DNA of 64,000 nucleotides from positions 6,130,055-6,194,054 of the forward strand of contig NC_058508.1 in NCBI RefSeq assembly GCF_020382885.2, read 5' to 3'. Every line of letters begins with the position of its first letter. The stretch's first letter is position 1. The position numbers and the translations under genes are program-made. Shown here piece after piece: positions 16,739 to 43,319 of the stretch. Below the pieces are notes generated by a model. It saw only the letters and a program-made list of their open reading frames with translations, did no database searches and had not been told where the DNA came from. The stretch is from Scatophagus argus. Its lineage: Eukaryota > Chordata > Actinopteri > Scatophagidae.

Positions 16739-18117
16739 CTATGTATACTGAGTCTGTCCATGTGCAGCTGAGGCTGTGCAGTGATTGGAAGGGGCTCGAG
16801 CTGCTCCGTCATTGGCTGGGTAGCTTGTCTGTGACTGGCTGATATACGTCTGTGTGTGAGTTGGTGGAGGCGAATGAACTGGAAGCTGTTGCTGGAACAT
16901 CCAGTCAGGAGGCAGGGACAACGTCACATACTGAATGCTGGGCTCTAACACATCTGTGTGTCTGTGAGGCTCGAACACATCTGTGTGTCTGTGAGGCTCA
17001 AACACATCTGTGTGTCTGTGAGGCTCGAACACATCTGTGTGTCTGTGAGGCTCGAACACATCTGTGTGTCTGTGAGGCTCGAACACATCTGTGTGTACGT
17101 GAGGCTCGAACACATCTGTGTGTCTGTGAGGCTCGAACACATCTGTGTGTACGTGAGGCTCGAACACACCTGCGTATGCGTGAGGCTCGAACGCACCTGC
17201 GTGTGCGTGAGGCTCAAACACATCTGTCTGTGGGACCAAGGCCTCCGTCACTGCTGTCTGCACTGGAGTCACACACACTTTCTTGGCCTGCTGTGTTTCA
17301 TCTTCAGGTTTGGATGCAGAGGCAGCTACACAATCAGACAGAAACACAGATCAGTTTTCTAAACCTTTCAAAACAAGATGGTGTTTCTGAAACCTGCGTT
17401 AAACAACATTTTAATACCAACACTGAATCAAATGACATTTAATTTGAAAAAGTCACAGTTTGTGTTGATGATTCTGATTTCTTATTTGCTTTGTAAAAAT
17501 CGTCAGTTCAGTCTTCAGTTAAAGACTTTATGTCAGTGTCGTCGTTCACTGCAGGGAAGCTGTTTGTGTCATTTATATTAAATCTACTAAAATGTAGACC
17601 AACACTGAACTTCATATCTTCAAAGTGTGAGTGAGTTGGTTTCTGCTCCTCAGTCTCTTGTATCGATGTTAAACGGTCAATAGCTTTCCAAAATGCAGAA
17701 TTAATCCTTAAAAGTCCACACATCATCTAGTTTTCATGACATTTCACATGAAAACACGCTGTGATTCACAGAAATATGCTCTTACCTTCAGCACAGGTGG
17801 GCTTCCTTCTTCTTTCTCTCTTCCTCTTTTTGCCCTGCACAAAAACAAACGCGACACACTTTGCATTTGACATCAGCTGAGAAAAACTCTTTGCAGTGAG
17901 TGTGTGTCGTCAGCTCTTGTGTAGTGTGTGTGTCGTGAGCTGTGTGTGAGCAGGGTGTACTTACATAGTTGTGACTGGACGACCACTCCGGGTGCTGCTG
18001 GGCGTGGAGCCGTCTTTCTCTGTCGGCCTGTTCGTAATATGTGGCCTGCTGTTCCTGTGACAGTGACTTCCACTGTGGGCGGACAACAACAAGACGTTAG
18101 ATAGCATGTACACACAC

Positions 18118-18173
<56 letters not shown>

Positions 18174-20282
18174 GCGCGCAGGACATTTCAGTCACACAAT
18201 GCTGCAAAATCCTTTAGAGTTCAGTTTGTTCTCTGATCATAAAACAGTAAATGAAAAGCTAAATATCAGATTTGGAGTTAGAGGTGTGAGACACTGAGTG
18301 TCTCAAACGTACAGAACCAAAACACTTACCTTCTGTCCCAGGACCGTGTTTACAGCCGCATTCCCTCGGCTTCTGATTTCGGCCTCAACGTGTGGCCTTT
18401 GCTCATTCAGGAACAGCATGAAGGCGTTTGGGGGCTTCTTTATATACTGACCGCCCTCCTGCTGGTTTTGACGCTTTCTCTTTCTATTGGACAAAAACAG
18501 AGAGAGAGGAGGTGATGTTACAAGAGTGGAAACACAAGATGTGTGTAAGATTGAACCTTGTCTCTGCTGTACTGTCCACTAAAACACATTAAGAGACACT
18601 GATTATAATCATATTCATGCAGAACATCAGTGGACAAACAACAGACACCTGAAATCAAACAACAGCTGATTGAAACTAAATAAAAGAAGATCCTAATTTG
18701 AATTTGTGTCTGACTTATTCATGTTGACCACAATCACAACTCATGAGAATTATGAAAATTACATTCGTGACCAAAACTGTCCAGAGCAAACTTACTTTGA
18801 TTTGGATGCGTCTGCTGGAGGAGCAGCAAAGACAGCAGGAGCACAAATCTCATACAGCGGCTGTCCATTCCTACACACATAAACAGAGACGGATACACAC
18901 TTCAGGTGGTAGGTCGAGTGTGTGTGACGATTAAAACTGAAACTCAGTAGCTGTGTTCACTCATGTTTTCACTCATGTGTGTGTTACTTACCACAGTCCT
19001 ACATAACGCAGGCTCTGGTTGCCTTCAAGGAACCCCGTCACTGGTATGCTGTTGTGCTGGAGACACAAACAGACACAGAACAGGTGATTTGACATGCTGC
19101 AGTGGCATCATCTGTCCCCTAGGTGTCAGGATGTTCCCTCCTCATAAATTCTAATAACTTTGAATGAGCTGCTGTCAGACACATCTGGAGGAACTACGGC
19201 ACTGAGGTATAGAGCTACGATATGTTTCTGTTGAAGGTCACAGAGGTCAGGAGTGTGTCGTCATGTGAAGGTCAGGTGACCACAGAGCAAAAAGCTGCGG
19301 TCACCTCAAATCCCAAAGTTATTTGGTTGTCAACACAAAAGCAAATTTGCCAGAAGAGAATAACTGAAAAGATGAATCAGTTATCAAAATAGCCACACAG
19401 TCGTGTTTTACAATTAATCACATTCAACGCATGTGAAGGGACAACAAAGTGATTTCACATTCAGATTTGTTTCTTGCTTCATTTTGACATAAAACATCCA
19501 ACACTGATAGCACGTGTATCAGTACAGGTACTCATAGACTCCTAATGATACCTGTGCCTGGCCTATGCTGAGTATCCTACCTGTCCCTGACTGGAAGCAC
19601 CTGCCTGACTGTGCAGGTGACCTGGCTGCATGTCTTCTTGACGTGGTGCATAGTTCATGGGGGGAGCTGTCGACAATTGACTTTGCTGCTTGACCCTCTG
19701 AGGAGCTGCTCCCAGGGAGCTACAGCCACCATATCCTCCCTCCTCCAGCTCAGCATGGACAGGAGGAGGAGGTGAAGGTGAAAATGAAGGTGAAAGAGGC
19801 AGCAGGTCGGGTGCGTCATCCAGAAGATCAAATCCATCCGACTTGAGAATGGAGTGCAACTCTCCCCAGATCTGATCTGCAACGTTATTGTCAGACTCTT
19901 GAGGATCCGTTTTGGAGGATGATTGTTGTGCTGAGGGTGGGTGTTGAGGGTAGGTATTGTGCCTCTTCTCAGCATTGACAGGAGGAGGTGAGGTTGAAGG
20001 TGGAGTGTGAGGTGCTTCATCCACTAAATCAACTCCAGCAGACTTGAGAATAGACAGCAAGTCTTCCCAGGAATTGTCTGCTACACCACAGTCAGCCTCC
20101 TGGAGCTCCGTCTCAGCATTGACAGGAGCATGTGAAGTTGAAGGTTGGGGTGAAGTAGATGGTGGTAGAGTATTCGGCGCTTCATCCACTAAATCTACTC
20201 CAGCCGACTTGAGAATAGACAGCAAGTCTTCCCAGTCGTTATCTGTCATGGTGCTGTCAACCTGCTCAGGTAACAGATCCAT
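16739..20282 (-). CDS. Divergent TCF/LEF-type HMG-box protein, array copy 1
   Basis: Probable nuclear DNA-binding protein. Coding exons: 20282-19581, 19056-18992, 18870-18796, 18483-18330, 18072-17965, 17834-17786, 17325-16739; all phases agree, giving 579 codons plus stop. Exon 1 starts MDLLPEQVD and holds two 55-residue repeats beginning WEDLLSILKSAGVDLVDE, plus a degenerate one (WGELHSILKSDGFDLLDD). Exons 4-5 encode the HMG box (KKPPNAFMLFLNEQRPHVEAE ... LGQK / WKSLSQEQQATYYEQA ... HPEWSSSHNY), and exon 6 the basic tail GKKRKRERRRK, as in TCF/LEF. Exon 7 has ten 9-residue VFEPHRHTD-type repeats and ends GQTQYT. No classical beta-catenin-binding N-terminus or C-clamp is seen. The neighbouring PLEKHF gene is divergent. 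Family membership is clear; the orthologue is not, so no symbol is given. Confidence 0.85.
16945..17223 (-). repeat. Coding 27-bp minisatellite, copy 1 (10 units)
   Basis: Tandem 27-bp units on the minus strand encode VFEPHAHAG, AFEPHAYAG, VFEPHVHTD and then mainly VFEPHRHTD, ending at VLEPS. Variant units lie at the N-terminal end and near-identical ones at the C-terminal end, a sign of recent expansion there. Because 27 is a multiple of 3 and the unit lacks stops in several frames, long artefactual open frames appear on both strands. Confidence 0.95.
18107..18170. repeat. (CA)n microsatellite in the HMG-box intron, copy 1
   Basis: An almost pure CA tract sits between the two exons that split the HMG box. 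It differs in length and interruptions among the three units (about 29,026-29,081 and 40,148-40,202 in units 2 and 3). The cysteine/valine-rich frames across it are artefacts. Confidence 0.93.
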
Positions 20283-23200
20283 TTTGCTGACTGGTTTGTG
20301 TGCTGTTTGTTGTCCCTGTTGGGTACTGGACTCCTGTCACACACGTTGATAGGAAGAGACACTTTTATGTGGACTAACATATATTATATGTCATATTATA
20401 CTCATTGAGGTGTTTATTGTATGATTCACTATATTTATGTGACTGCTGCAGTTTATTATCAGATAAAAAGCTAACATACAAAATGATGGATTAAGAAGCT
20501 GTGATGTTAAGGATTTAACTCCTCCTCAGTACATTCATAAGAGTACTTTTACTTTTGACAATACCAAGTGCTCTTACAGTAAGTACTTGAGCTACTTGAT
20601 TATTTCCATTTTATGCTACTTTATCTTTTTATTCCACCACATTTCAGTGGCATAAATTATACTTTTGTACTCCTCTACAGGCATTCAACAGCCTAACTTT
20701 ACCAAAGTCCTGTTGCTCTGCTTACAAGTTACACGTTTCTTTACACATTCAGAGTTTACTTAGAAAATCTTTGAATAACTAAAAGAAGCATAAATCACTC
20801 ATCATGTTATCTGTGCCAGTTATCTGAGAGCCAAGAGCACCCAGCTGGCCTTAAGTGTTAGATTTATCTGTTCCTGCATATAACAGAATGACAGTAAGGA
20901 TTAGTTCAAAAGCTAACTGTCTAACTACTTACTTAAGATGTTTTGTATTCACTGATGGTTCAGTTCACTGGCTTCAAACTCTTGCTCCGGTTTGGATTAT
21001 TGTTTGGTCCCACTAAATGTGTAGCTCACACGGCGAAGGCTGCAGGTGAACTGAGCCAAATTCTGCTCAGTAATGTTCTATAAAATATTCCATTCTGTGA
21101 TTCCATTCTAATTCAAAGCACAGTCATAGAATGTTAGGTTATTGCCTTTTAAGGTAAAAACTGTGGGGACCATAGTGATATGCAACATGTTTAGGACATT
21201 GATGGACACGAGACACCCCCCATCCTTGTGTTTATTTGTTTGTGTTGTTATTATGCTCACTGGGATGTAGTATGTGTATTTGAACTCACAGCTAGATTAT
21301 TTGGGCGAGGTAAGCAAGGTTAAATGGAGTGATGCTCACACTGGTGCTTCGTGGGCAGCTCAGGGGTCCTTTGGGTCACAACATGGGAGTGTGCTTGCAT
21401 CCCCTCAGTGTACCTGAGCAGACTGCAGCATACAGAAACGCTGCACTCACATGCATCTGTTGCTGTATTTTACTGTGAGCGAAGGAGTAAAGAGATTCCT
21501 TAGAACTCATGTACGCCTGGAAGTCCCTCTTTGTGTCCAAGTGTGCAACAAAACCTTAAAGCCATTATCAATGTCCTCGTGTCCTTCTCTGCCAATGACA
21601 CAACCTTTATTTCAGTCCATATGCACCAATATGATAAGACAGATATTGATGGTAATAAACTTTGCTATATGGGATGTTAAACAGAGTAACAAACAATGTA
21701 AAGTACCATAAAACAGATCAGTTGATAAAACATTTCAGTGAGACTTAATGATAAACTGAACACACCATTTTTAGTATTAAGTCTTCATATATTCGTCCAT
21801 TAAAATGAAATAAAATCATTTTAATTGACACATCTATGGACACAAGAAATGTTTTTATATCAGATCAACCCATAAAATCCTCAAATGTCATTATTCTTTC
21901 ATTTAATTTGACATATTATTAATATTATTATTTTTAGCAGCATCACCATGGCATCAAGTCACTACCTTCACAGGAACATCCAAAAAAATGACCAAAAGAT
22001 CAAACTGGTTCGCGACAAATAAACAAGTGAAATGTTTCATATGGACGTGAGTTTATTACACAGAGCAAACACTTTTCTCTTTAGGTGCAGTTACATCTTT
22101 GTGTTCATTAAGGTCTTTTCTGCTGAGCAACATTGACAAAATACTTTTACCTCTGGATTTAAAACTCCAGTCTCACATGCTTCACCTGAGAGCTCTGTAT
22201 GGTTCAGTCATGTTGAGCTAAAGGGACAATCCACTAATTTTACACCAAAATAAAGAAGCCTCCTCTATGATTCCTGTAAAATGACTGCTGAGTCTACGAA
22301 AACAGTTGTATCATGTCTTCCTAGAAGAAGGAAGAGACTGAGACTTTGTGTGTGAATAACGAGAAAGAAAGAAAGAAAGAAAAATGGATGACCGTCCTTT
22401 TGATTGTACCCTCCAGTCAAACGGTTTGTACCAGATTATTTCCTGGATGGCAGCAGTAACATCCTCGAGCCTCCACACTTCAGTCACTCGGTGTGTTAAT
22501 CAATGAGTTTTTGGGTGTCTGGCTGGTTTCCAGTCTTTATACTCAGATAGGTTTTGAACATGTGCTGCCATTGACAGCGCTGCCAATGCACTGAACTGGT
22601 ACATCTGTTCCGCCTACGTTCCCATTTGGAATTCACTTTGTGTTTTCCCGACTGTGTTACCGTTAACAGTATCACTGGTGTCCAAGAAATGTGACCGCAG
22701 TGACTGCAGGCATGTTGTTTGTTTCTGGCTGGTTTACATAGTTGGTATTTGTTTACTGATTGATCGGTGAACCTGCACATGCAGAAACGTGGTGAGGAAC
22801 ACGGTATGCTGACGTTTGGGGCTTTCTTTTCCAGCTGCTGGTTGAACTGCTCAGCCAGACTCACAGTACTGTCATGTTGTGTTCAGCTGACAGTTTTAGC
22901 CTTCTTATTATTGAAGCAGTGATATCACAGTCATCACTTTAATGTTGTAATTCACTGAGCGTAGCTAATTTTCAGTCTTTTAGAAATTATTGGTTGTTTA
23001 TTCGACAACAGTGACTTTTTATTTTCTTTATGATTTATTTTCAAACTGGCCATGTGCTTTGTATGTAAATTCCTTTTCTAACAATTAAACCAGGGCCTGT
23101 ATCTGCAAAATGAAAACAACCTTTTCAATGGACGTATGAAAATAAAAACAATGTCAATAGTCAAGTGAAGGACAATAGGCCAAAACTCAGAATATTACTT

Positions 23201-23505
23201 AAATCGATATACTTTAACTTTTCATCTCTGGTATCATGTTATTATTTACTCTGAATTTACAAAGTAATCTTAAGCTTTTAAAACATAAATACACCTATTA
23301 AAGTAAAATTCATCATTTCCTTCAATATGCTCCACCTCAGCGTCTCTTTTATTTCCTGTACAACATGTTTTCCTTCAGTCTATTCTTGGAAAGTCCCTCA
23401 CTGCATCATCACACACACAAAAAGGCTTTTTAAAGGCTCAGCCTGCTGCAGCTGGCACTTTGTTCATTTTTGATCCCAGTGTGAGCGCGGATACAGGACA
23501 ACATT
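20283..23505. other. Spacer between the divergent HMG and PLEKHF genes, unit 1
   Basis: About 3.2 kb with no convincing exon. The stretch 20,540-20,700 resembles the reverse complement of the AAAGTAAAAGTACTC-type repeat described at 10,893. A (GAAA)n tract lies at about 22,363-22,381. A 122-codon minus-strand frame at 22,496-22,864 is broken by a base-count difference in unit 2, so it is probably not coding. The spacer must hold both promoters. A TTTTTAAAGG word about 80 bases above the PLEKHF start is only a weak TATA candidate. Confidence 0.5.
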
Positions 23506-24809
23506 ATGGATCAGATAACATTCGATAAAGAAAATGATGAGCGTATCAAAGCAGTGGAGAATTCATTCGGTGCATCAGGGAGGTCCTTGTCCAAATCAGG
23601 TCGGATTCTGATGGGACAGGGCCGTCTGATGAAGCAGGGTCGTCGGAAACCCCAGCCTAAGGATTTCTTCCTCTTCAACGATGTTCTTGTGTACGGCAGC
23701 GTCATTCTGAACGGCCGCTTTCACAAAAACCAGAAGATAATCCCTCTAGGTGAGCAGCTTCCCTGCTAATACATGCATTTGTCACTGCTTTGGTGTTGTC
23801 TTTTTTAAAACTTTGCATAATTCACATGATCTAATACATCTTATGGCTATTAATCCAATTAAATAGAAAAGCAGTAAAAAAAAAATATTCTAAACCACCT
23901 CTAAAAATGTCCACAGATGACCGAAACTTCTCCCAGTTAAACTTTTTTTTTTTCTGTAGAACAAAAACAGGATTTTTCTTTCTGTTAAATGTGTTTTTTG
24001 AAAAACATGGAATTAGTTGCACTCCCATTACACTGATTCAGCTACAGGAGTTTCAAAGGCAAATATCTCGAACCCTCAGCCAAAAAGCAAAATTATTAGT
24101 CCTGCTGAATGTCTGAAGAGAAGCTCAGAACGTATTTGATGATTTGTATTACAGTAAGCTCAGTTCACTGTGAGCCATAACTGCCAAACTCTGATTTCTT
24201 GGTGGACAAGCATTTTGACAGTCCATATTACATAATCAGTATGTCTTCTTCTCTGTCATTTCAGAGGACATTGAGCTGGAGGACATGGAGGACAGTCTGG
24301 ATGTGAGGAACCAATGGCTGATCCGTACGCCGCGCAAGTCGTTTTTTGTGTCCGCGCCTTCACACGAGGAGAAGCAGGCCTGGATTGAGCACATCAAAGA
24401 GTGCCGGTCAGGCCTGCTGCAGGACGGCAGCTGCCAACGTGGTTCCAGCTTTGCTGTTACCTGGATCCCAGACCGGGCCTCCTTCAGATGCATGCGCTGC
24501 TTCAACAAGTTCACAACAACCAAACGTCGACACCATTGCAGAAAATGTGGCTTTCTGGTGTGCAATTCATGCTCCAAACAGCGAGCAGTGATTAACCACA
24601 TTCATCCCACTAAGAGACTGAGGGTCTGCAGTCTCTGCCACACTCAGAACAAAGAAGAAGATGAGATATCTCGACTGAGGGGGGACAGTGCTGGAATGAA
24701 TAGCTTAGAGGGCGAAGATGTGGCAGCATCCAGTGATGAAGACGAGGGAGTGGGAATGATTCAATGCTACGCTCAGAGCAGCTGGCTGGACACTTGGAGG
24801 AGCCATTAA
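23506..24809 (+). CDS. PLEKHF-like (phafin) PH-FYVE protein, copy 1
   Basis: Phosphoinositide-binding endosome/lysosome adaptor family. Exons 23506-23749 and 24265-24809 join in phase (IIPL/EDIELEDM), giving 262 residues (human PLEKHF1 279, PLEKHF2 249). An N-terminal PH domain runs from about GRILMGQGRLMKQ through FFLFNDVLVYG to KQAWIEHIKEC. The FYVE finger follows with WIPD, CMRC, the RRHHCRKCG basic motif, CNSC and RVCSLC, so all signature zinc ligands and the PI3P pocket are present. The C-terminus is acidic (ASSDEDEG), as in the family. The start is the only ATG that gives the family N-terminus (DERIKAVENSFGASG). Polyadenylation signals AATAAA lie at 24865 and 25155. It could be a PLEKHF1 or PLEKHF2 paralogue; I do not choose. 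Confidence 0.92.
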
Positions 24810-27649
24810 CCACATTAACACACTTAATGTTAACTCAAAACCAGTGAATCAACAGCCTTAGTGAAATAAAACTGCAGCATTAAGACTCAAACAAAGACAG
24901 TTGGACACAATAGAAGCATGTTGGAAATCGAGTGAAAAAATCTTTGACTGCTGTCATTGCTGAGCTTTTATTCTGTACTTGTTTGCTGTGAAGTAGTTTA
25001 CATTTTGCTTTCAAATGATCAGTGAATAACAAAGCACTCACAAAACAGATGTGTGTGTGTGTGTGTGTGTGTTGTGATGCTTCTGTGTTGAGAGTCACGT
25101 TGGATGCACCAATCTTACTTTCTCTGTCATGATTTTGATGCACACATTTTTCTTAATAAAAAGCCACTGCTGAGCTTATTTATGTGGAGCTCCAATGTGT
25201 TCAGAATGATGGGAAATACAGCATATAAATGAAAAAAATATTGTGATTTAATAATGAAAATGAATTTTAAGGAATCATTAAACTTAACTTATTGTTATGG
25301 CATCCTTATTTTAATCATTTTTAGCCTGATTGTTCTGTAGTAACTGTGTGTTATGTCTGAGCTGCCGATGCTAATAAACTCTACTTGTTATGAGCGAGAG
25401 TCGAAAATTGTGAAAAACTGCCTAATTGAATAATTCAGTTATGACATAGTTCACATTGTTTTCACACGTTTTCACCAACTATTGACATGTTTGATGCGTC
25501 TTGGAATCTTGGAATTTGCCTTACATGGACTTTAAATGCTTACAGGCAGGTCGTTCATGTACGGGTTACCAAACCAAGAGGCCCACAGAGATGAGAGCAG
25601 TCAGCAACTGGACAGTAAACATGGAGGACAGCAAAATGGCTACGATGTTGTGAACAGCTGGGTCTTTCCTGTGACCTTTTAAATGTGACAAAGTGTGTTT
25701 CTGTCTACTTCGGACTGGCAGCCTGTTGGCGTGTGAGCAGAGGGATCGGCAGATGTTTAGGTGGTTTCTGTTGACGGAGGCTTTGCCAGTACAAACAAGG
25801 AGGGTGTGGGTTGTTTGACAATAAAAATGTGTGAGGTTGTCTGTTTAAGATGATGTCAGCAGAAGAAAATGAGATTTCTACATCTTCCTTGTTATGTACC
25901 TCAGGATTAAAAAGTCCATAACAGCAAACACCAGTTCATTTTGAACTGCCCTCAATTGCTGTTTCTGATTTTGATTCGATCCAATAGGCTGATATAAACA
26001 TTTCACATGACACGACATTTTCCAAGAGGCTTAATGGGCTTTCATAAACACTTGGTAAAAACTGGAACAAACCCAAATGCTTTCTCATCATGGGTGAGTC
26101 ATTTGTTGGAGTGTCAAACCTGTTTGTCGCTTTTCATACAAGGGACAACGACAACAAGGAAATGTGGCATATTTTCCTGTCAGAGAACTTTGAATACAGA
26201 GTGCATTTATAGCTGTTGGTTAACCTTACCTGGTGTGTTGGAACCACAGGAGCACTATCGCTGATGCTGCACAAATGCAGACAAATGAAGCACTTTTGTA
26301 TTTGTATAGCAAGTACAGCAGAACTGTGCTGACACTCACATCTTTGTCTGAAGGCTTTACAGTCAGTGAGAAGCTTCTCCCAGAAATGTCCACTCTGATG
26401 GTACACGAAATTGTGTCTCTGTTGCTGTGTTTTGTTTTCAAAAACTATGGGGACATGGTGGATATGGTGCACTTCAGTGCATTCAATAATGCCAACGAGA
26501 CTTTGCATTTAAGCAGCAAAAGTGGAATTTCCCTGTGTTAATAAACTTAATGGTACAGAAAACATTTAATATCTTTGATTCAGTTTTAACTGGGACTATT
26601 ATGTCTGAGAAAAAAGTCAGACAGCTGTGATGGGGCTGGACTCATCCTGAGCTGCTTTCTATCTTCCAAATGTTGTAAGTCGAACATCAAAAGTCCCAAA
26701 AGTTTATTTTCAGTGAGATCCTGTGGATTCTGTCAGCATGTAGAAACAACCAAAGGAGCAGATCCCTTCACACTACTGGTGTACTGGGAGGAATTTCAAC
26801 CCTGGACTAAAGGATTTTACTATTGTGCCAAAGTAGCAGCTGTTAGGTGTAGCACCACCAGCTTTTCCAAATTGGCCCTTTCACTTTCACATTGATTGTT
26901 TTCACTCAGAATGGGACGTGGTTGTATGTCTGCTGATCAGGATATACAGGGAGCACAAATTATTATTATTTCAAATTATTTCAAAGGTGGACTTGGATTA
27001 AATACATATTTTCTGTTATTTAATAAGAAATTATTTATTGTTGGGGAATAAGTTTCCTTATGAAGTAACTTGCATTGCACGGTGTTTATATAGAAATATG
27101 GCCTTGGGCTGGTTCCTTCTTATCCATGAAGATAAATGTTTCAAAGCATAAACCAGTATGGCCTGTGCTCTCTCAGTGTTCAACAGATGTTGGTGCTAAA
27201 CAGAATTAGACAAAGAAGAAAGAGAATCCATTACTTTCAGCTGGTTATCTGTTTCAGCTGACACAGCTCACATGTGCCTTTTCTGGAAAAAAGGGGTGAA
27301 AAGGGTTACACATATACTCATAGCGCCCCCTGCCGGTTGAGGCAGGCTACCGCAGTGAAGTTTTCTGACATGTCTCCAACAATAGTGAGGGAACGTGGAG
27401 GCTGGGGCTTATTGTCACTGCTTTGTGTACTGCAGTGTTGCTTATCAGTTCACACCCTGAGGCTCACTAAGGTCTCATCTTAGCCAATGATAATACATCA
27501 TCATTAATTAGGTTACTACATTTTATTGAGCAGATTCCGCAAAATTGCAAAACCAAAAAACAGTTAAAGGCTGCAAGTTTACACAGACTGAGTGAAATTA
27601 GAAATGAACACGATAAGAAACAAAAAAGTAAATAATAATAATAAAGAAG
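24810..27649. other. 3' part of duplication unit 1, no recognised gene
   Basis: PLEKHF 3' UTR followed by AT-rich sequence. A (GT)n tract lies at about 25,050-25,071. Frames of up to 124 codons around 26,007-26,541 occur on both strands of the same segment, recur in unit 2 and match nothing known. A GCGCCCCCTGCCGG word at 27,323 resembles the conserved end of dispersed fish repeats. Confidence 0.45.
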
Positions 27650-29023
27650 CTACGGAGGACACTGAGTCTGTCCATGTGCAGCTGAGGCTGTGCAGTGATT
27701 GGAAGGAGCTCGAGCTGCTCCGTCATTGGCTGGGTAGCTTGTCTGTGACTGGCTGATAGACGTCTGTGTGTGAGTTGGTGGAGGCGAATGAACTGGAAGC
27801 TGTTGCTGGAACATCCAGTCAGGAGGCAGGGACAACGTCACATACTGAATGCTGGGCTCTAACACATCTGTGTGTCTGTGAGGCCCGAACACATCTGTGT
27901 GTCTGTGAGGCCCGAACACATCTGTGTGTCTGTGAGGCTCGAACACATCTGTGTGTCTGTGAGGCTCGAACACATCTGTGTGTCTGTGAGGCTCGAACAC
28001 ATCTGTGTGTCTGTGAGGCTCGAACACATCTGTGTGTCTGTGAGGCTCGAACACATCTGTTTGTGTGTGAGGCTCGAGCACACCTGCGTATGCGTGAGGC
28101 TCGAACGCACCTGCGTGTGCGTGAGGCTCAAACACATCTGTCTGTGGGACCAAGGCCTCCATCACTGCTGTCTGCACTGGAGTCACACACACTTTCTTGG
28201 CCTGCTGTGTTTCATCTTCAGGTTTGGATGCAGATGCAGCAACACAATCAGACAGAAACACAGATCAGTTTTCTAAACCTTTCAAAACAAGATGGTGTTT
28301 CTGAAACCTGCGTTAAACAACATTTTAATACCAACACTGAATCAAATGACATTTAATTTGAAAAAGTCACAGTTTGTGTTGATGATTCTGATTTCTTATT
28401 AGCTTTGTAAAAATCGTCAGTTCAGTCTTCAGTTAAAGACTTTATGTCAGTGTCGTCGTTCACTGCAGGGAAGCTGTTTGTGTCATTTATATTAAATCTA
28501 CTAAAATGTAGACCAACACTGAACTTCATATCTTCAAAGTGTGAGTGAGTTGGTTTCTGCTCCTCAGTCTCTTGTATCGATGTTAAACGGTCAATAGCTT
28601 TCCAAAATGCAGAATTAATCCTTAAAAGTCCACACATCATCTAGTTTTCATGACATTTCACATGAAAACACGCTGTGATTCACAGAAATATGTTCTTACC
28701 TTCAGCACAGGTGGGCTTCCTTCTTCTTTCTCTCTTCCTCTTTTTGCCCTGCACAAAAACAAACGCGACACACTTTGCATTTGACATCAGCTGAGAAAAA
28801 CTCTTTGCAGTGAGTGTGTGTCGTCAGCTCTTGTGTAGTGTGTGTGTCGTGAGCTGTGTGTGAGCAGGGTGTACTTACATAGTTGTGACTGGACGACCAC
28901 TCCGGGTGCTGCTGGGCGTGGAGCCGTCTTTCTCTGTCGGCCTGTTCGTAATATGTGGCCTGCTGTTCCTGTGACAGTGACTTCCACTGTGGGCGGACAA
29001 CAACAAGACGTTAGATAGCATGT

Positions 29024-29085
<62 letters not shown>

Positions 29086-31359
29086 GCGCGCAGGACATTT
29101 CAGTCACACAATGCTGCAAAATCCTTTAGAGTTCAGTTTGTTCTCTGATCATAAAACAGTAAATGAAAAGCTAAATATCAGATTTGGAGTTAGAGGTGTG
29201 AGACACTGAGTGTCTCAAACGTACAGAACCAAAACACTTACCTTCTGTCCCAGGACCGTGTTTACAGCCGCATTCCCTCGGCTTCTGATTTCGGCCTCAA
29301 CGTGTGGCCTTTGCTCCTTCAGGAACAGCATGAAGGCGTTTGGGGGCTTCTTTATATACTGACCGCCCTCCTGCTGGTTTTGACGCTTTCTCTTTCTATT
29401 GGACAAAAACAGAGAGAGAGGAGGTGATGTTACAAGAGTGGAAACACAAGATGTGTGTAAGATTGAACCTTGTCTCTGCTGTACTGTCCACTAAAACACA
29501 TTAAGAGACACTGATTATAATCATATTCATGCAGAACATCAGTGGACAAACAACAGACACCTGAAATCAAACAACAGCTGATTGAAACTAAATAAAAGAA
29601 GATCCTAATTTGAATTTGTGTCTGACTTATTCATGTTGACCACAATCACAACTCATGAGAATTATGAAAATTACATTCGTGACCAAAACTGTCCAGAGCA
29701 AACTTACTTTGATTTGGACGCGTCTGCTGGAGGAGCCGCAACGACAGCAGGAGCACAAATCTCATACAGCGGCTGTCCATTCCTACACACATAAACAGAG
29801 ACGGATACACACTTCAGGTGGTAGGTCGAGTGTGTGTGACGACTAAAACTGAAACTCAGTAGCTGTGTTCACTCATGTTTTCACTCATGTGTGTGTTACT
29901 TACCACAGTCCTACATAACGCAGGCTCTGGTTGCCTTCAAGGAACCCCGTCACTGGTATGCTGTGTTGCTGGAGACACAAACAGACACAGAACAGGTGAT
30001 TTGACATGCTGCAGTGGCATCATCTGTCCCCTAGGTGTCAGGATGTTCCCTCCTCATAAATTCTAATAACTTTGAATGAGCTGCTGTCAGACACATCTGG
30101 AGGAACTACGGCACTGAGGTATATAGCTACGATATGTTTCTGTTGAAGGTCACAGAGGTCAGGAGTGTGTCGTCATGTGAAGGTCAGGTGACCACAGAGC
30201 AAAAAGCTGCGGTCACCTCAAATCCCAAAGTTATTTGGTTGTCAACACAAAAGCAAATTTGCCAGAAGAGAATAACTGAAAAGATGAATCAGTTATCAAA
30301 ATAGCCACACAGTCGTGTTTTACAATTAATCACATTCAACGCATGTGAAGGGACAACAAAGTGATTTCACATTCAGATTTGTGTCTTGCTTCATTTTGAC
30401 ATAAAACATCCAACACTGATAGCATGTGTATCAGTACAGGTACTCATAGACTCCTAATGATACCTGTGCCTGGCCTATGCTGAGTATCCTACCTGTCCCT
30501 GACTGGAAGCACCTGCCTGACCGTGCAGGTGACCTGGCTGCATGTCTTCTTGACGTGGTGCATAGTTCATGGGGGGAGCTGTCAACAATTGACTTTGCTG
30601 CTCGACCCTCTGAGGAGCTGCTCCCAGGGAGCTACAGCCACCATATCCTCCCTCCTCCAGCTCAGCATGGACAGGAGGAGGAGGTGAAGGTGAAAATGAA
30701 GGTGAAAGAGGCAGCAGGTCGGGTGCGTCATCCAGAAGATCAAATCCATCCGACTTGAGAATGGAGTGCAACTCTCCCCAGATCTGATCTGCAACGTTAT
30801 TGTCAGACTCTTGAGGATCCATTTTGGAGGATGATTGTTGTGCTGAGGGTGGGTGTTGAGGGTAGGTATTGTGCCTCTTCTCAGCATTGACAGGAGGAGG
30901 TGAGGTTGAAGGTGGAGTGTGAGGTGCTTCATCCACTAAATCTACTCCAGCAGACTTGAGAATAGACAGCAAGTCTTCCCAGGAATTGTCTGCTACACCA
31001 CAGTCAGCCTCCTGGAGCTCCGTCTCAGCATTGACAGGAGCATGTGAAGTTGAAGGTTGGGGTGAAGTAGATGGTGGTAGAGTATTCGGCGCTTCATCCA
31101 CTAAATCTACTCCAGCCGACTTGAGAATAGACAGCAAGTCTTCCCAGGAATTGTCTGCTACACCACAGTCAGCCTCCTGGAGCTCCGTCTCAGCATTGAG
31201 AGGAGCATGTGAAGTTGAAGGTTGGGGTGAAGTAGATGGTGGTAGAGTATTCGGCGCTTCATCCACTAAATCTACTCCAGTCGACTTGAGAATAGACAGC
31301 AAGTCTTCCCAGTCGTTATCTGTCATGGTGCTGTCAACCTGCTCAGGTAACAGATCCAT
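27650..31359 (-). CDS. Divergent TCF/LEF-type HMG-box protein, array copy 2
   Basis: Same structure as copy 1: exons 31359-30493, 29968-29904, 29782-29708, 29395-29242, 28986-28879, 28748-28700 and a last exon ending at 27650. Differences are as follows. There are three full 55-residue N-terminal repeats instead of two (exon 1 is 165 bases longer). The HMG box has LKEQRPHVEAE instead of LNEQ. Ten 9-residue repeats are present, two of them VFGPHRHTD. The C-terminus is GQTQCPP instead of GQTQYT. The acceptor used by copy 1 for the last exon reads TG here (expected exon start 28239). The nearest in-frame AG is 24 bases further in (exon start 28215), which would delete eight residues. No stop or frameshift is seen in the other exons. 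Confidence 0.8.
27859..28137 (-). repeat. Coding 27-bp minisatellite, copy 2 (10 units)
   Basis: Units encode VFEPHAHAG, AFEPHAYAG, VLEPHTQTD, five VFEPHRHTD and two VFGPHRHTD. The third unit (VLEPHTQTD) differs from copy 1 but resembles copy 3, so copies 2 and 3 are the closer pair in this tract. Confidence 0.95.
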
Positions 31360-34300
31360 TTTGCTGACTGGTTTGTGTGCTGTTTGTTGTCCCTGTTGGG
31401 TACTGGACTCCTGTCACACACGTTGATAGGAAGAGACACTTTTTTACGTGGACTAACATATATTATATGTCATATTATACTCATTGAGGTGTTTATTGTA
31501 TGATTCACTATATTTATGTGACTGCTGCAGTTTATTATCAGATAAAAAGTTAACATACAAAATGATGGATTAAGAAGCTGTGATGTTAAGGATTTAACTC
31601 CTCCTCAGTACATTCATAAGAGTACTTTTACTTTTGACAATACCAGGTGCTCTTACAGTAAGTACTTGAGCTACTTGATTATTTCCATTTTATGCTATTT
31701 TATCTTTTTATTCCACCACATTTCAGTGGCATAAATTGTACTTTTGTACTCCTCTACAGGCATTCAACAGCCTAACTTTACCAAAGTCCTGTTGCTCTGC
31801 TTACAAGTTACACGTTTCTTTACACATTCAGAGTTTACTTAGAAAACCTTTGAATAACTAAAAGAAGCATAAATCACTCATCATGTTATCTGTGCCAGTT
31901 ATCTGAGAGCCAAGAGCACCCAGCTGGCCTTAAGTGTTAGATTTATCTGTTCCTGCATATAACAGAATGACAGTAAGGATTAGTTCAAAAGCTAACTGTC
32001 TAACTACTTACTTAAGATGTTTTGTATTCACTGATGGTTCAGTTCACTGGCTTCAAACTCTTGCTCCGGTTTGGATTATTGTTTGGTCCCACTAAATGTG
32101 TAGCTCACGCGGCGAAGGCTGCAGGTGAACTGAGCCAAATTCTGCTCAGTAATGTTCTATAAAATATTCCATTCTGTGATTCCATTCTAATTCAAAGCAC
32201 AGTCATAGAATGTTAGGTTATTGCCTTTTAAGGTAAAAACTGTGGGGACCATAGTGATATGCAACATGTTTAGGACATTGATGGACACGAGACACCCCCC
32301 ATCCTTGTGTTTATTTGTTTGTGTTGTTATTATGCTCACTGGGATGTAGTATGTGTATTTGAACTCACAGCTAGATTATTTGGGCGAGGTAAGCAAGGTT
32401 AAATGGAGTGATGCTCACACTGGTGCTTCGTGGGCAGCTCAGGGGTCCTTTGGGTCACAACATGGGAGTGTGCTTGCATCCCCTCAGTGTACCTGAGCAG
32501 ACTGCAGCATACAGAAACGCTGCACTCACATGCATCTGTTGCTGTATTTTACTGTGAGCGAAGGAGTAAAGAGATTCCTTAGAACTCATGTACGCCTGGA
32601 AGTCCCTCTTTGTGTCCAAGTGTGCAACAAAACCTTAAAGCCATTATCAATGTCCTCGTGTCCTTCTCTGCCAATGACACAACCTTTATTTCAGTCCATA
32701 CGCATCAATAAGATAAGACAGATATTGATGGTAATAAACTTTGCTATATGGGACATTAAACAGAGTAACAAACAATGTAAAGTACCATAAAACAGATCAG
32801 TTGATAAAACATTTCAGTGAGACTTAATGATAAACTGAACACACCATTTTTAGTATTAAGTCTTCATATATTCGTCCATTAAAATGAAATAAAATCATTT
32901 TAATTGACACATCTATGGATTATTATGGATTATTATTATTATTTTTAGCAGCATCACCATGGCATCAAGTCACTACCTTCACAGGAACATCCAACAAAAT
33001 GACCAAAAGATCAAACTGGTTCGTGACAAATAAACAAGTGAAATGTTTCATATGGACGTGAGTTTATTACACAGAGCCCACACTTTTCTCTTTAGGTGCA
33101 GTTACATCTTTGTGTTCATTAAGGTCTTTTCTGCTGAGCAACATTGACAAAATACTTTTACCTCTGGATTTAAAACTCCAGTCTCACATGCTTCACCTGA
33201 GAGCTCTGTATGGTTCAGTCATGTTGAGCTAAAGGGACAATCCACTAATTTTACACCAAAATAAAGAAGCCTCCTCTATGATTCCTGTAAAATGACTGCT
33301 GAGTCTACGAAAACAGTTGTATCATGTCTTCCTAGAAGAAGGAAGAGACTGAGACTTTGTGTGTGAATAACGAGAAAGAAAGAAAGAAAGGAAGAAAAAT
33401 TGATGACCGCCCTTTTGATTGTACCCTCCAGTCAAACGGTTTGTACCAGATTATTTCCTGGATGGCAGCAGTAACATCCTCGAGCCTCCACACTTCAGTC
33501 ACTCGGTGTGTTAATCAATGAGTTTTTGGGTGTCTGGCTGGTTTCCAGTCTTTATACTAAGATAGGTTTTGAACATGTGCTGCCATTGACAGCGCTGCCA
33601 ATGCACTGAACTGGTACATCTGTTCCGCCTACGTTCCCCTTTGAATTCACTTTGTGTTTTCCCGACTGTGTTACCGTTAACAGTATCACTGGTGTCCAAG
33701 AAATGTGACCGCAGTGACTGCAGGCATGTTGTTTGTTTCTGGCTGGTTTACATAGTTGGTATTTGTTTACTGATTGATCGGTGAACCTGCACATGCAGAA
33801 ACGTGGTGAGGAACACGGTATGCTGAGGTTTGGGGCTTTCTTTTCCAGCTGCTGGTTGAACTGCTCAGCCAGACTCACAGTACGGTCATGTTGTGTTCAG
33901 CTGACAGTTTTAGCCTTCTTATTATTGAAGCAGTGATATCACAGTCATCACTTTAATGTTGTAATTCACTGAGCGTAGCTAATTTTCAGTCTTTTAGAAA
34001 TTATTGGTTGTTTATTCGACAACAGTGACTTTTTATTTTCTTTATGATTTATTTTCAAACTGGCCATGTGCTTTGTATGTAAATTCCTTTTCTAACAATT
34101 AAACCAGGGCCTGTATCTGCAAAATGAAAACAACCTTTTCAATGGACGTATGAAAATAAAAACAATGTCAATAGTCAAGTGAAGGACAATAGGCCAAAAC
34201 TCAGAATATTACTTAAATCGATATATTTTAACTTTTCATCTCTGGTATCATGTTATTATTTACTCTGAATTTACAAAGTAATCTTAAGCTTTTAAAACAT

Positions 34301-34519
34301 AAATACACCTATTAAAGTAAAATTCATCATTTCCTTCAATATGCTCCACCTCAGCGTCTCTTTTATTTCCTGTACAACATGTTTTCCTTCAGTCTATTCT
34401 TGGAAAGTCCCTCACTGCATCATCACACACACAAAAAGGCTTTTTAAAGGCTCAGCCTGCTGAAGCTGGCACTTTGTTCATTTTTGATCCCAGTGTGAGC
34501 GCGGATACAGGACAACATT
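31360..34519. other. Spacer between HMG and PLEKHF genes, unit 2
   Basis: Counterpart of 20,283-23,505 with the same content: a fragment of the AAAGTAAAAGTACTC-type repeat near 31,620-31,780 and a (GAAA)n-like tract near 33,374. The minus-strand frame of unit 1 at 22,496-22,864 is split here by a base-count change, arguing against coding function. Confidence 0.5.
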
Positions 34520-35790
34520 ATGGATCAGATAACATTCGATAAAGAAAATGATGAGCGTATCAAAGCAGTGGAGAATTCATTCGGTGCATCAGGGAGGTCC
34601 TTGTCCAAATCAGGTCGGATTCTGATGGGACAGGGCCGTCTGATGAAGCAGGGTCGTCGGAAACCCCAGCCTAAGGATTTCTTCCTCTTCAACGATGTTC
34701 TTGTGTACGGCAGCGTCATTCTGAACGGCCGCTTTCACAAAAACCAGAAGATAATCCCTCTAGGTGAGCAGCTTCCCTGCTAATACATGCATTTGTCACT
34801 GCTTTGGTGTTGTCTTTTTTTTTTTTATTAATCCAATCAAATAGAAAAGCTGTAAAATAAAAAATATTCTAAACCATCTCTAAAAATGTCCACAGATGAC
34901 CGAAACTTCTCCCAGTTAAACATTTTTTTTTTATCTGTAGAACAAAAACAGGATTTTTCTTTCTGTTAAATGTGTTTTTTGAAAAACATGGAATTAGTTG
35001 CACTCCCATTACACTGATTCAGCTACAGGAGTTTCAAAGGCAAATATCTCGAACCCTCAGCCAAAAAGCAAAATTATTAGTCCTGCTGAATGTCTGAAAA
35101 GAAGCTCAGAACGTATTTGATGATTTGTATTACAGTAAGCTCAGTTCACTGTGAGCCATAACTGCCAAACTCTGATTTCTTGGTGGACAAGCATTTTGAC
35201 AGTCCATATTACATAATCAGTATGTCATCTTCTCTGTCATTTCAGAGGACATTGAGCTGGAGGACATGGAGGACAGTCTGGATGTGAGGAACCAATGGCT
35301 GATCCGTACGCCGCGCAAGTCGTTTTTTGTGTCCGCGCCTTCACACGAGGAGAAGCAGGCCTGGATTGAGCACATCAAAGAGTGCCGGTCAGGCCTGCTG
35401 CAGGACGGCAGCTGCCAACGTGGTTCCAGCTTTGCTGTTACCTGGATCCCAGACCGGGCCTCCTTCAGATGCATGCGCTGCTTCAACAAGTTCACAGCAA
35501 CCAAACGTCGACACCATTGCAGAAAATGTGGCTTTCTGGTGTGCAATTCATGCTCCAAACAGCGAGCAGTGATTAACCACATTCATCCCACTAAGAGACT
35601 GAGGGTCTGCAGTCTCTGCCACACTCAGAACAAAGAAGAAGATGAGATATCTCGACTGAGGGGGGACAGTGCTGGAATGAATAGCTTAGAGGGGGAAGAT
35701 GTGGCAGCATCCAGTGATGAAGACGAGGGAGTGGGAATGATTCAATGCTACGCTCAGAGCAGCTGGCTGGACACTTGGAGCAACCATTAA
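34520..35790 (+). CDS. PLEKHF-like (phafin) PH-FYVE protein, copy 2
   Basis: Exons 34520-34763 and 35246-35790 give 262 residues, nearly identical to copy 1. Visible protein differences are KFTATK versus KFTTTK in the FYVE finger, and a final TWSNH versus TWRSH. All FYVE signature residues (WIPD, RRHHCRKCG, RVCSLC) and the PH core are intact. The first exon is unchanged between copies. The proximal AATAAA (35846) is kept, while the distal signal of copy 1 is ATTAAA here. It probably encodes an active protein, as far as sequence can show. Confidence 0.92.
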
Positions 35791-38638
35791 CCACATTAAC
35801 ACACTTAATGTTAACTCAAAACCAGTGAATCAACAGCCTTAGTGAAATAAAACTGCAGCATTAAGACTCAAACAAAGACAGTTGGACACAATAGAAGCAT
35901 GTTGGAAATCGAGTGAAAAAATCTTTGCTGTCATTGCTGAGCTTTTATTCTGTACTTGTTTGGTGTGAAGTAGTTTACATTTTGCTTTCAAATGATCAGT
36001 GAATAACAAAACACTCACAAAACAGATGTGTGTGTGTGTGTGTGTGTGTGTGTGTTGTGATGCTTCTGTGTTGAGAGTCACGTTGGATGCACCAATCTTA
36101 CTTTCTCTGTCATGATTTTGATGCACACATTTTTCTTATTAAAAAGCCACTGCTGAGTTTATTTATGTGGAGCTCCAATGTGTTCAGAATGATGGGAAAT
36201 ACAGCATATAAATGAAAAAAATATTGTGATTTAATAATGAAAATGAATTTTAAGGAATCATTAAACTTAACTTATTGTTATGGCATCCTTATTTTAATCA
36301 TTTTTAGCCTGATTGTTCTGTAGTAACTGTGTGTTATGTCTGAGCTGCCGATGCTAATAAACTCTACTTGTTATGAGCGAAAGTCCAAAATTGTGAAAAA
36401 CTGCCTAATTGAATAATTCAGTTATGACATAGTTCACATTGTTTTCACACGTTTTCACCAACTATTGACATGTTTGATGCGTCTTGGAATCTTGGAATTT
36501 GCCTTACATGGACTTTAAATGCTTACAGGCAGGTCGTTCATGTACGGGTTACCAAACCAAGAGGCCCACAGAGATGAGAGCAGTCAGCAACTGGACAGTA
36601 AACATGGAGGACAGCAAAATGGCTACGATGTTGTGAACAGCTGGGTCTTTCCTGTGACCTTTTAAATGTGACAAAGTGTGTTTTTGTCTACTTCGGACTG
36701 GCAGCCTGTTGGTGTGTGAGCAGAGGGATCGGCAGATGTTTAGGTGGTTTCTGTTGACGGAGGCTTTGCCAGTACAAACAAGGAGGGTGTGGGTTGTTTG
36801 ACAATAAAAATGTGTGAGGTTGTCTGTTTAAGATGAAGTCAGCAGAAGAAAATGAGATTTCTACATCTTCCTTGTTATGTACCTCAGGATAAAAAAGTCC
36901 ATAACAGCAAACACCAGTTCATTTTGAACTGCCCTCAATTGCTGTTTCTGATTTTGATTCGATCCAATAGGCTGATATAAACATTTCACATGACACGACA
37001 TTTTCCAAGAGGCTTAATGGGCTTTCATAAACACTTGGTAAAAACTGGAACAAACCCAAATGCTTTCTCATCATGGGTGAGTCATTTGTTGGAGTGTCAA
37101 ACCTGTTTGTCGCTTTTCATACAAGGGACAACGACAACAAGGAAATGTGGCATATTTTCCTGTCAGAGAACTTTGAATACAGAGTGCATTTATAGCTGTT
37201 GGTTAACCTTACCTGGTGTGTTGGAACCACAGGAGCACTATCGCTGATGCTGCACAAATGCAGACAAATGAAGCACTTTTGTATTTGTATAGCAAGTACA
37301 GCAGAACTGTGCTGACACTCACATCTTTGTCTGAAGACTTTACAGTCAGTGAGAAGCTTCTCCCAGAAATGTCCACTCTGATGGTACACGAAATTGTGTC
37401 TCTGTTGCTGTGTTTTGTTTTCAAAAACTATGGGGACATGGTGGATATGGTGCACTTCAGTGCACTCAGTAATGCCAACGAGACTTTGCATTTAAGCAGC
37501 AAAAGTGGAAATTCCCTGTGTTAATAAACTTAATGGTACAGAAAACATTTAATATCTTTGATTCAGTTTTAACTGGGACTATTATGTCTGAGAAAAAAGT
37601 CAGACAGCTGTGATGGGGCTGGACTCATCCTGAGCTGCTTTCTATCTTCCAAATGTTGTAAGTCGAACATCAAAAGTCCCAAAAGTTTATTTTCAGTGAG
37701 ATCCTGTGGATTCTGTCAGCATATAGAAACAACCAAAGGAGCAGATCCCTTCACACTACTGGTGTACTGGGAGGAATTTCAACCCTGGACTAAAGGATTT
37801 TACTATTGTGCCAAAGTAGCAGCTGTTAGGTGTAGCACCACCAGCTTTTCCAAATTGGCCCTTTCACTTTCACATTGATTGTTTTCACTCAGAATGGGAC
37901 GTGGTTGTATGTCTGCTGATCAGGATATACAGGGAGCACAAATTATTATTATTTCAAATTATTTCAAAGGTGGACTTGGATTAAATACATATTTTCTGTT
38001 ATTTAATAAGAAATTATTTATTGTTGGGGAATAAGTTTCCTTATGAAGTAACTTGCATTGCACGGTGTTTATATAGAAATCTGGCCTTGGGCTGGTTCCT
38101 TCTTATCCATGAAGATAAATGTTTCAAAACATAAACCAGTATGGCCTGTGCTCTCTCAGTGTTCAACAGATGCTGGTGCTAAACAGAATTAGACAAAGAA
38201 GAAAGAGAATCCATTACTTTCAGCTGGTTATCTGTTTCAGCTGACACAGCTCACATGTGCCTTTTCTGGGGCCAACTGGGCTTGTTTGAAGAGGGTTACA
38301 CATATACTCATAGCGCCCCCTGCCGGTTGAGGCAGGCTACCGCAGTGAAGTTTTCTGACATGTCTCCAAAAATAGTGAGGGAACGTGGAGGCTGGGGCTT
38401 ATTGTCACTGCTTTGTATACTGCAGTGTTGCTTATCAGTTCACACCCTGAGGCTCACTAAGGTCTCATCTTAGCCAATGATAATACATCATCATTAATTA
38501 GGTTACTACATTTTATTGATCAGATTCCGCAAAATCGCAAAACCAAAAAACAGTTAAAGGCTGCAAGTTTACACACACTGAGTGAAATTAGTAATGAACA
38601 CAATAAGAAACAAAAAGTGAATAATAACAACAAAGAAA
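35791..38638. other. 3' part of duplication unit 2, no recognised gene
   Basis: Counterpart of 24,810-27,649. A (GT)n tract lies at about 36,026-36,056. Open frames near 36,990-37,524 repeat those of unit 1 on both strands and are not supported. Near 38,267 a short block (GGGGCCAACTGGGCTTG) replaces the unit 1 sequence. Confidence 0.45.
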
Positions 38639-40145
38639 CTACGGAGGACACTGAGTCTGTCCATGTGCAGCTGAGGCTGTGCAGTGATTGGAAGGGGATC
38701 GAGCTGCTCCGTCATTGGCTGGGTAGCTTGTCTGTGACTGGCTGATAGACGTCTGTGTGTGAGTTGGTGGAGGCGAATGAACTGGAAGCTGTTGCTGGAA
38801 CATCCAGTCAGGAGGCAGGGACAACGTCACATACTGAATGCTGGGCTCTAACACATCTGTGTGTACGTGAGGCCCGAACACATCTGTGTGTCTGTGAGGC
38901 TCGAACACATCTGTGTGTACGTGAGGCCCGAACACATCTGTGTGTCTGTGAGGCTCGAACACATCTGTGTGTCTGTGAGGCCCGAACACATCTGTGTGTC
39001 TGTGAGGCTCGAACACATCTGTGTGTCTGTGAGGCGCGAACACATCTGTGTGTCTGTGAGGCCCGAACACATCTGTGTGTCTGTGAGGCTCGAACACATC
39101 TGTGTGTACGTGAGGCTCGAACACATCTGTGTGTCTGTGAGGCTCGAACACATCTGTGTGTCCGTGAGGCTCGAACACACCTGTTTGTGTGTGAGGCTCG
39201 AGCACACCTGCGTATGCGTGAGGCTCGAACGCACCTGCGTGTGCGTGAGGCTCAAACACATCTGTCTGTGGGACCAAGGCCTCCGTCACTGCTGTCTGCA
39301 CTGGAGTCACACACATTTTCTTGGCCTGCTGTGTTTCATCTTCAGGTTTGGATGCAGATGCAGCAACACAATCAGACAGAAACACAGATCAGTTTTCTAA
39401 ACCTTTCAAAACAAGATGGTGTTTCTGAAACCTGCGTTAAACAACATTTTAATACCAACACTGAATCAAATGACATTTAATTTGAAAATGTCACAGTTTG
39501 TGTTGATGATTCTGATTTCTTATTAGCTTTGTAGAAATCGTCAGTTCAGTCTTCAGTTAAAGACTTTATGTCAGTGTCGTCGTTCACTGCAGGGAAGCTG
39601 TTTGTGTCATTTATATTAAATCTACTAAAATGTAGATCAACACTGAACTTCATATCTTCAAAGTGTGAGTGAGTTGGTTTCTGCTCCTCAGTCTCTTGTA
39701 TCGATGTTAAACGGTCAATAGCTTTCCAAAATGCAGAATTAATCCTTAAAAGTCCACACATCATCTAGTTTTCATGACATTTCACATGAAAACACGCTGT
39801 GATTCACAGAAATATGCTCTTACCTTCAGCACAGGTGGGCTTCCTTCTTCTTTCTCTCTTCCTCTTTTTGCCCTGCACAAAAACAAACGCGACACACTTT
39901 GCATTTGACATCAGCTGAGAAAAACTCTTTGCAGTGAGTGTGTGTCATCGGCTCTTGTGTAGTGTGTGTGTCGTGAGCTGTGTGTGAGCAGGGTGTACTT
40001 ACATAGTTGTGACTGGACGACCAGTCCGGGTGCTGCTGGGCGTGGAGCCGTCTTTCTCTGTCGGCCTGTTCGTAATATGTGGCCTGCTGTTCCTGTGACA
40101 GTGACTTCCACTGTGGGCGGACAACAACAAGACGTTAGATAGCAT

Positions 40146-40205
<60 letters not shown>

Positions 40206-42479: not shown

Positions 42480-43319
42480 TTTGCTGGCTGGTTTCTGTGC
42501 TGTTTGTTGTCCCTGTTGGGTACTGGACTCCTGTCACACACGTTGATAGGAAGCTGAATTTGAGACACTTTTTTACGTGGACTAACATATATTATATGTC
42601 ATATTATACTCATTGAGGTGTTAATTGTATGATTCACTATATTTATGTGACTGCTGCAGTTTATTATCAGATAAAAAGCTAACATACAAAATGATGGATT
42701 AAGAAGCTGTGATGTTAAGGATTTAACTCCTCCTCAGTACATTCATAAGAGTACTTTTACTTTTGACAATACCAAGTGCTCTTACAGTAAGTACTTGAGC
42801 TACTTGATTATTTCCATTTTATGCTACTTTATCTTTTTATTCCACCACATTTCAGTGGCATAAATTATACTTTTGTACTCCTCTACAGGCATTCAACAGC
42901 CTAACTTTACCAAAGTCCTGTTGCTCTGCTTACAAGTTACACGTTTCTTTACACATTCAGAGTTTACTTAGAAAATCTTTGAATAACTAAAAGAAGCATA
43001 AATCACTCATCATGTTATCTGTGCCAGTTATCTGAGAGCCAAGAGTACCCAGCTGGCCTTAAGTGTTAGATTTATCTGTTCCTGCATATAACAGAATGAC
43101 AGTAAGGATTAGTTCAAAAGCTAACTGTCTAACTACTTACTTAAGATGTTTTGTATTCACTGATGGTTCAGTTCACTGGCTTCAAACTCTTGCTCCGGTT
43201 TGGATTATTGTTTGGTCCCACTAAATGTGTAGCTCACACGGCGAAGGCTGCAGGTGAACTGAGCCAAATTCTGCTCAGTAATGTTCTATAAAATATTCCA
43301 TTCTGTGATTCCATTCTAA
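38650..43319. repeat. Tandem segmental duplication, unit 3 (truncated, 4,670 bp)
   Basis: It matches unit 1 from 16747 to about 21,107 and then stops abruptly after TTCCATTCTAAT. The following bases belong to older, more diverged sequence. It therefore holds the HMG gene and its upstream region but not PLEKHF. Confidence 0.93.
38848..39261 (-). repeat. Coding 27-bp minisatellite, copy 3 (15 units)
   Basis: Units include VFEPHAHAG, AFEPHAYAG, VLEPHTQTG, VFEPHGHTD, VFEPHVHTD, VFAPHRHTD and alternating VFEPHRHTD/VFGPHRHTD and VFGPHVHTD. It is the longest and most varied of the three arrays. The EPH/GPH alternation suggests two-unit slippage or unequal exchange. Confidence 0.95.

Follow-up and report, generated by a model that had tools for sequence, protein, structure and literature searches.

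What is a gene that joins a TCF/LEF-type HMG box to repeats at both of its ends: an independent branch of the TCF/LEF family or an altered descendant of a known member, and what could its product do? The question is raised by a 64-kb stretch of the Scatophagus argus genome (contig NC_058508.1, here C16, at C16:6130055-6194054; hereafter the window), in which a preliminary description made from the sequence alone had pointed out such a gene. A TCF-derived gene with seven coding exons and 579 open codons is present on the minus strand at window positions 16739-20282 (copy 1). It belongs to a family of at least five near-identical copies, all on one contig of the searched genome (571 Mb, 48 contigs), whose predicted products combine a TCF HMG box and basic tail with three or four WEDLL-type motifs and a 9-residue array of variable length. 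Copy 1 is composed as follows.

16739..20282, minus strand: copy 1, TCF-derived gene, seven coding exons, 579 amino acids predicted
19581..20282, minus strand: exon 1, three WEDLL-type motifs (from residues 17, 72 and 139) that a relaxed rule predicts to be acidic activation segments
18992..19056, minus strand: exon 2
18796..18870, minus strand: exon 3, 75 nt, in phase 2 on either side; homologue of exon VIII in tcf7l1 of contig C20
18330..18483, minus strand: exon 4, N-terminal part of the HMG box
17965..18072, minus strand: exon 5, C-terminal part of the HMG box
17786..17834, minus strand: exon 6, basic tail GKKRKRERRRK
16739..17325, minus strand: exon 7, C-terminal region with the 9-residue repeats; first eight codons unsure
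16941..17231, minus strand: 27-nt coding array (DVFEPHRHT), 10.8 copies

The HMG box (Pfam HMG_box, 1e-16) is of TCF/LEF type. Its best match in the PDB was LEF1 at 93.8 bits, followed by a chain at 53.2 bits and by SOX-30 at 47.6, and in trees it grouped with TCF/LEF and was split from SOX with support of 99/100 and 100/100. SOX membership was discarded, the box lying outside the SOX clade in both trees. The basic tail follows the box, and the strings by which the preliminary description had recognised box and tail are all present, with LGQKWKSLS and HNYGKKRKR crossing exon joins (after LGQK and after HNY). Over 83 positions, 45 residues are identical to each of human TCF7L2, LEF1 and TCF7L1 and 44 to TCF7. 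Within the genome, identity over 75 positions is 40 to the box on C4, 39 to those on C21 and C2, 38 to C14, and 36 to C20 and C23. By these counts the box is about equally distant from all other TCF/LEF boxes, and it sits on a long branch, the end branch measuring 0.87-1.72 changes per column in the trees against medians of 0.05-0.31.

A TCF-type HMG box and TCF intron positions would also be expected of a plain orthologue of a known TCF/LEF gene, misread through its odd ends. Diagnostic HMG residues of the TCF/LEF subfamilies are given in section 3.4 of PMC9303524, and our mapping of its numbering was inferred from N20 of LEF1. By the residues given in that section, the boxes elsewhere in the genome are those of lef1 on C2 (N20), tcf7 on C14 (V2, I22) and tcf7l2 on C21 (none), together with two of tcf7l1 type on C4 and C20 (S43, S64). 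Since all these types sit on other contigs, the C16 genes are extra to them. The genome thus contradicts a plain orthologue, which the long end branch also argues against and which we regard as very improbable; here the preliminary description was borne out. In the tabulated part of PMC9303524, each of four teleosts has five TCF/LEF genes, with very highly conserved exon-intron structures. The presence of two tcf7l1-type genes, as in this genome, is described there for teleosts. A sixth, moderately divergent TCF/LEF locus beyond the five listed there is found at C23:15234482-15234880. The tcf7l1-type gene on C20 (710000-728900) evolves faster than that on C4, with more changes in its HMG box and a shortened exon VIII.

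The preliminary description had named one copy and missed two. Self-comparison and Tandem Repeats Finder (TRF) showed that the window carries three head-to-tail gene copies in units of about 11 kb.

27650..31359, minus strand: copy 2, seven exons, 635 amino acids (31359-30493, 29968-29904, 29782-29708, 29395-29242, 28986-28879, 28748-28700, 28239-27650)
38639..42479, minus strand: copy 3, seven exons, 680 amino acids (42479-41613, 41088-41024, 40902-40828, 40515-40362, 40110-40003, 39872-39824, 39363-38639)
16747..43324: tandem array, unit 1 at 16747-27660, unit 2 at 27661-38649, partial unit 3 at 38650-43324

The units of the window are 97.8-99.0% identical in aligned pieces longer than 1 kb. 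A genome search with the HMG region found at least five copies, all on C16: the three in the window and others near 6.519 Mb and 7.138 Mb. A search with exon 1 returned eight rows, all within these same five copies. The genome search scores best candidates only, and five is therefore a lower bound. The predicted lengths of copies 1-5 are 579, 635, 680, 653 and 598 amino acids. Copy 1 ends in YT where copies 2-5 have CPP, because the left edge of the array (16747) cuts its last coding exon; the right edge is at 43324. No family of this kind is described in the titles and abstract openings of the open-licence literature matches listed, a weak negative with subscription journals and sequence databases outside its reach, and annotations of fish genomes could well include genes of this sort by TCF-like names.

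The descent of the family can be read from its introns. The HMG box is split directly before W in the C16 gene and in all six other TCF loci of the genome, and the tail exon begins with GK after NY in the C16 gene and in five of those six (the C14 tail exon was unseen). The intron between exons X and XI is described as a chordate innovation in section 4.4 of PMC9303524, and we infer that it corresponds to the intron between NY and GK of the C16 genes. Exon 3 and exon VIII of C20 tcf7l1 are each 75 nt long, each of phase 2 at both ends, and identical at 10 of 25 residues in an ungapped alignment (NGQPLY...SKSK to PGQPMY...SMSR), which was equalled by one of 20,000 shuffles. Human TCF7L1, TCF7L2 and LEF1 are, we presume, longer at the position of exon VIII. 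Because of the intron positions and exon 3, descent of the 3′ half from a TCF/LEF gene is near certain. Since both features match the TCF genes of the same genome, the family would be a fast-evolving TCF offshoot and not an ancient branch. The independent new TCF/LEF branch of the preliminary description accordingly gives way to a derived tcf7l1 lineage, to which the introns, exon 3 and two HMG residues point with modest tree support.

The two residues are P19 and Q39, which C16 and C20 alone have in common among 12 rows. In the same rows R26 and R28 are common to C16 and C23 alone, and K40 to C16 and human TCF7L1 alone. S43 is present in five of five copies and agrees with the TCF7L1 subfamily, in which the diagnostic list of PMC9303524 has N or S. 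Support for grouping the box with TCF7L1 in trees was modest (67/78 and 63/79). A close relation between C16 and C23 was neither favoured nor clearly rejected, with p-AU (approximately unbiased test) of 0.059 and, in other runs, 0.25 and 0.067. The source gene was likely tcf7l1, on modest support, and the C20 paralogue is a plausible candidate. The C16 genes resemble C20 tcf7l1 in their TCF HMG box, both introns, the length and phase of exon VIII, and P19, Q39 and S43. They differ from C20 and TCF7L1 in their WEDLL repeats, their 9-residue array and A64, found in five of five copies where the subfamily has S according to the same list. Read from its splice sites, C20 would have one exon more, placed after exon VIII and before that of the HMG box; intron 3 of the C16 genes showed no remnant of it in five of five copies. 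Most central TCF exons have no counterpart in the C16 genes, and the Groucho/TLE-binding region of TCF proteins bears no sharp signature in sequence.

A further difference is that C20 tcf7l1 carries a beta-catenin-binding segment. Searched with a profile of human N-termini, none of 2,751 six-frame pieces from the window showed such a segment (best E 8). The same profile recovered a fly control sequence at 3.3e-9 and, as a positive control in this genome, the segment of C20 tcf7l1 (2.3e-23), which lies about 9 kb upstream of the HMG exon. Around copies 4-5 and C23 none was found in 4,387 pieces (best E 1.6). The upstream stretch covered was about 44, 33 and 21 kb for copies 1, 2 and 3, about 12 kb for each of copies 4-5 and about 26 kb for C23. 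The classical segment, which the preliminary description had not seen either, was thus not found in the searched DNA. None of the five predicted proteins contains a C-clamp motif or the vertebrate CtBP motif PLSLxxK in the form given in PMC9303524. Since no beta-catenin-binding segment was found, the C16 genes are filed as TCF-derived and not as functional TCF/LEF members.

An HMG box without a beta-catenin-binding segment is also the make-up of truncated, dominant-negative TCF7 and LEF1 isoforms. The predicted proteins could likewise occupy TCF sites without beta-catenin and act as competitors, with the WEDLL motifs serving as a corepressor or docking platform or being inert. The loss of the segment, the best-supported difference, speaks for this. 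According to the part of PMC4963812 drawn on here, natural N-terminal deletion isoforms are dominant-negative and TCF7L1 has historically been viewed as the repressor of the pathway. However, the isoforms described there are made from alternative promoters within a complete gene, whereas the C16 genes are separate and have a new acidic first exon. That exon is not a plain truncation, its acidic, leucine- and tryptophan-bearing repeats being recognised by a relaxed activation-domain rule in five copies, and the CtBP motif, in the form just cited, is missing from all five proteins. A competitor appears somewhat unlikely to us.

Exon 1 contains 3, 4, 4, 4 and 3 WEDLL-type motifs in copies 1-5, respectively. 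The N-terminal repeat of 55 residues in the preliminary description holds for the first spacing of copy 1; the second is 67, and the third motif has diverged (WGELHSILKSDGFDLLDD). The motif regions carry a net charge near -8 to -9 and have W, F and L gathered within 39 residues, and in this they are like the acidic activation domains of CITED2 and VP16. Composition rules for such domains are taken from PMC10550315, in which eq. 1 is the original, strict rule and eq. 3 a relaxed one. Applied here, eq. 3 picked out every motif in five of five copies and nothing in two human TCFs. The observed tile count was reached by 39 of 2,000 shuffles of exon 1 in copy 1 and by 57 of 2,000 in copy 3, and with a laxer cut-off of our own by 29 of 1,000 in copy 3. 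Within copy 1, motifs 1 and 2 are separated by six silent and three amino acid changes (one-sided p 0.007); within copy 3 the counts are three and none between motifs 2 and 3, and five and four between motifs 1 and 3.

Relatives of exon 1 were sought more widely. None was found outside the five C16 copies at E values up to 1 in the genome search (best candidates only), and around the other TCF genes the best WEDLL match among 4,729 segments had an E of 4.1. A single PDB match (E 0.58) was not taken as real. Exon 1 alone scored 23.3 bits, in two stretches, with Sigma-70 region 1.1 (PF03979), 0.8 above the cut-off of 22.5; the whole protein scored 19.7 and single repeats 15.9, 12.5 and nothing. 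We take this match as a chance one, raised by the repeats. Neither the PDB nor Pfam offered exon 1 a convincing relative, and it follows the relaxed rule of PMC10550315 only; in both respects it differs from the CITED2/VP16 kind.

The explanation that we tentatively prefer, with slightly less than even confidence, is a beta-catenin-independent factor derived from tcf7l1 and acting at TCF sites, whose acidic repeats drive or modulate the target genes. The predicted protein would enter the nucleus and bind TCF sites through its HMG box and basic tail. Without a beta-catenin segment it would escape the usual switching by Wnt. Its acidic amphipathic helices, being repeated, may contact general coactivators, so that TCF target genes would be driven or modulated independently of beta-catenin, with a strength that could be tuned through the number of motifs. 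The predicted sequences slightly favour an activator over a competitor, through exon 1 only. A stronger form of this proposal, in which a Wnt-dependent switch has turned autonomous in a vertebrate lineage by losing its beta-catenin input and gaining a tunable array of acidic activation helices, and has been amplified into a gene family that would turn on Wnt targets in the absence of Wnt, seems rather unlikely. If true, it would show that Wnt signalling is open to capture at its output end by lineage-specific genes that keep the DNA-binding half of a TCF and replace its signal-receiving half. The family would then also offer a direct test of whether TCF sites work without beta-catenin in a living vertebrate.

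Several results weigh against a tcf7l1-derived activator. The trees joined C16 to C20 with support of 74/61, and of 64/25 under a mixture model and 87/84 under LG+G4, and raw HMG identity to C20 (36/75) is below that to the C4 tcf7l1 (40/75). The beta-catenin profile also found nothing in 9.9-kb stretches of C4, C21, C14 and C2, whose N-terminal exons probably lie further off. Absence of the segment at copies 4-5 is therefore weak evidence, and a distant upstream exon carrying it may exist, above all at those two copies. The activation motif proposed in the preliminary description agrees with the relaxed rule, but the strict eq. 1 found it nowhere, and the positive predictive value that PMC10550315 states for the relaxed rule is near 0.2, measured on the known lists considered there. 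In copy 3, motifs 1 and 2 are separated by two silent and four amino acid changes, and in copy 1 the first and last motifs by five and 14; there is some sign of selection on the WEDLL motif, not a uniform one. Coding divergence among the five copies is 0.73-1.35% and that of introns 0.39-1.17% (10 pairs; coding comparison of 817 nt, made up of exons 2-6 plus the final 363 nt of exon 1). Outside the repeats, 372 codons have 17 amino acid and eight silent variable sites (ratio 0.63, p 0.34).

The last two results are also the main support for a decaying or neutral array, in which a partial TCF duplicate was amplified together with a neighbouring FYVE-domain gene and the repeats are minisatellites that stay in frame by luck. 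Coding regions and introns have diverged alike, the 17 and eight sites are not different from the neutral expectation, and repeat units of 27 and 165 nt hold the frame by their length alone. The acceptor of exon 7 is TAG in copy 1 only and TTG in copies 2-5 (17325-17326, 28239-28240 and 39363-39364 in the window). Nevertheless, all five copies are open across seven exons, with GT at 30 of 30 donors and AG at 26 of 30 acceptors (six of six and six of six in copy 1 itself). Exon 7 can instead use an AG that lies 24 nt further downstream; as this AG keeps the frame, the first eight codons of the exon are unsure. Moreover, the HMG box is still open and TCF-like after 38-39 of 83 residues have changed relative to human TCFs, unlike a long-dead gene. 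The divergence between copies in itself neither shows nor excludes constraint, and with these points decay seems to us quite unlikely as an account of the family.

At the other end of the gene, the His/Pro-rich 9-residue repeats of the preliminary description were recovered as a 27-nt array of 10.8 units in copy 1, with 92% matches and a TRF score of 456, far beyond chance. TRF counted 10.8 units in copy 2 and 15.8 in copy 3, and copies 1 and 3 are 94.4% identical in a 485-bp piece over this array. The number of repeats varies between copies.

The remaining features of the window are the following.

24219..24806, plus strand: FYVE-domain exon inside the duplicated unit (Pfam FYVE, 2.7e-17)
23485-23766: open reading frame (ORF), candidate upstream exon of the FYVE gene, without a Pfam match
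8982-9926, minus strand: flanking PI3K p101-type adapter (Pfam, 1e-67)
58232-58669, plus strand: flanking myosin N-terminus (Pfam, 4.5e-16)

The FYVE-domain gene, presumably plekhf-like, is also present in the matching part of unit 2. Because the duplicated unit carries it on the plus strand, the array multiplies two genes. Of ten window ORFs compared with Pfam, six had no match and one had a match under the cut-off. A scan for bacterial-type promoters upstream of copy 1 was set aside as not meaningful for a vertebrate gene. A short repeat of about 91 bp is dispersed over the window, once per unit (20582-20672, 31661-31751 and 42790-42880) and once outside the array (44909-45000), its occurrences being 86-88% alike.

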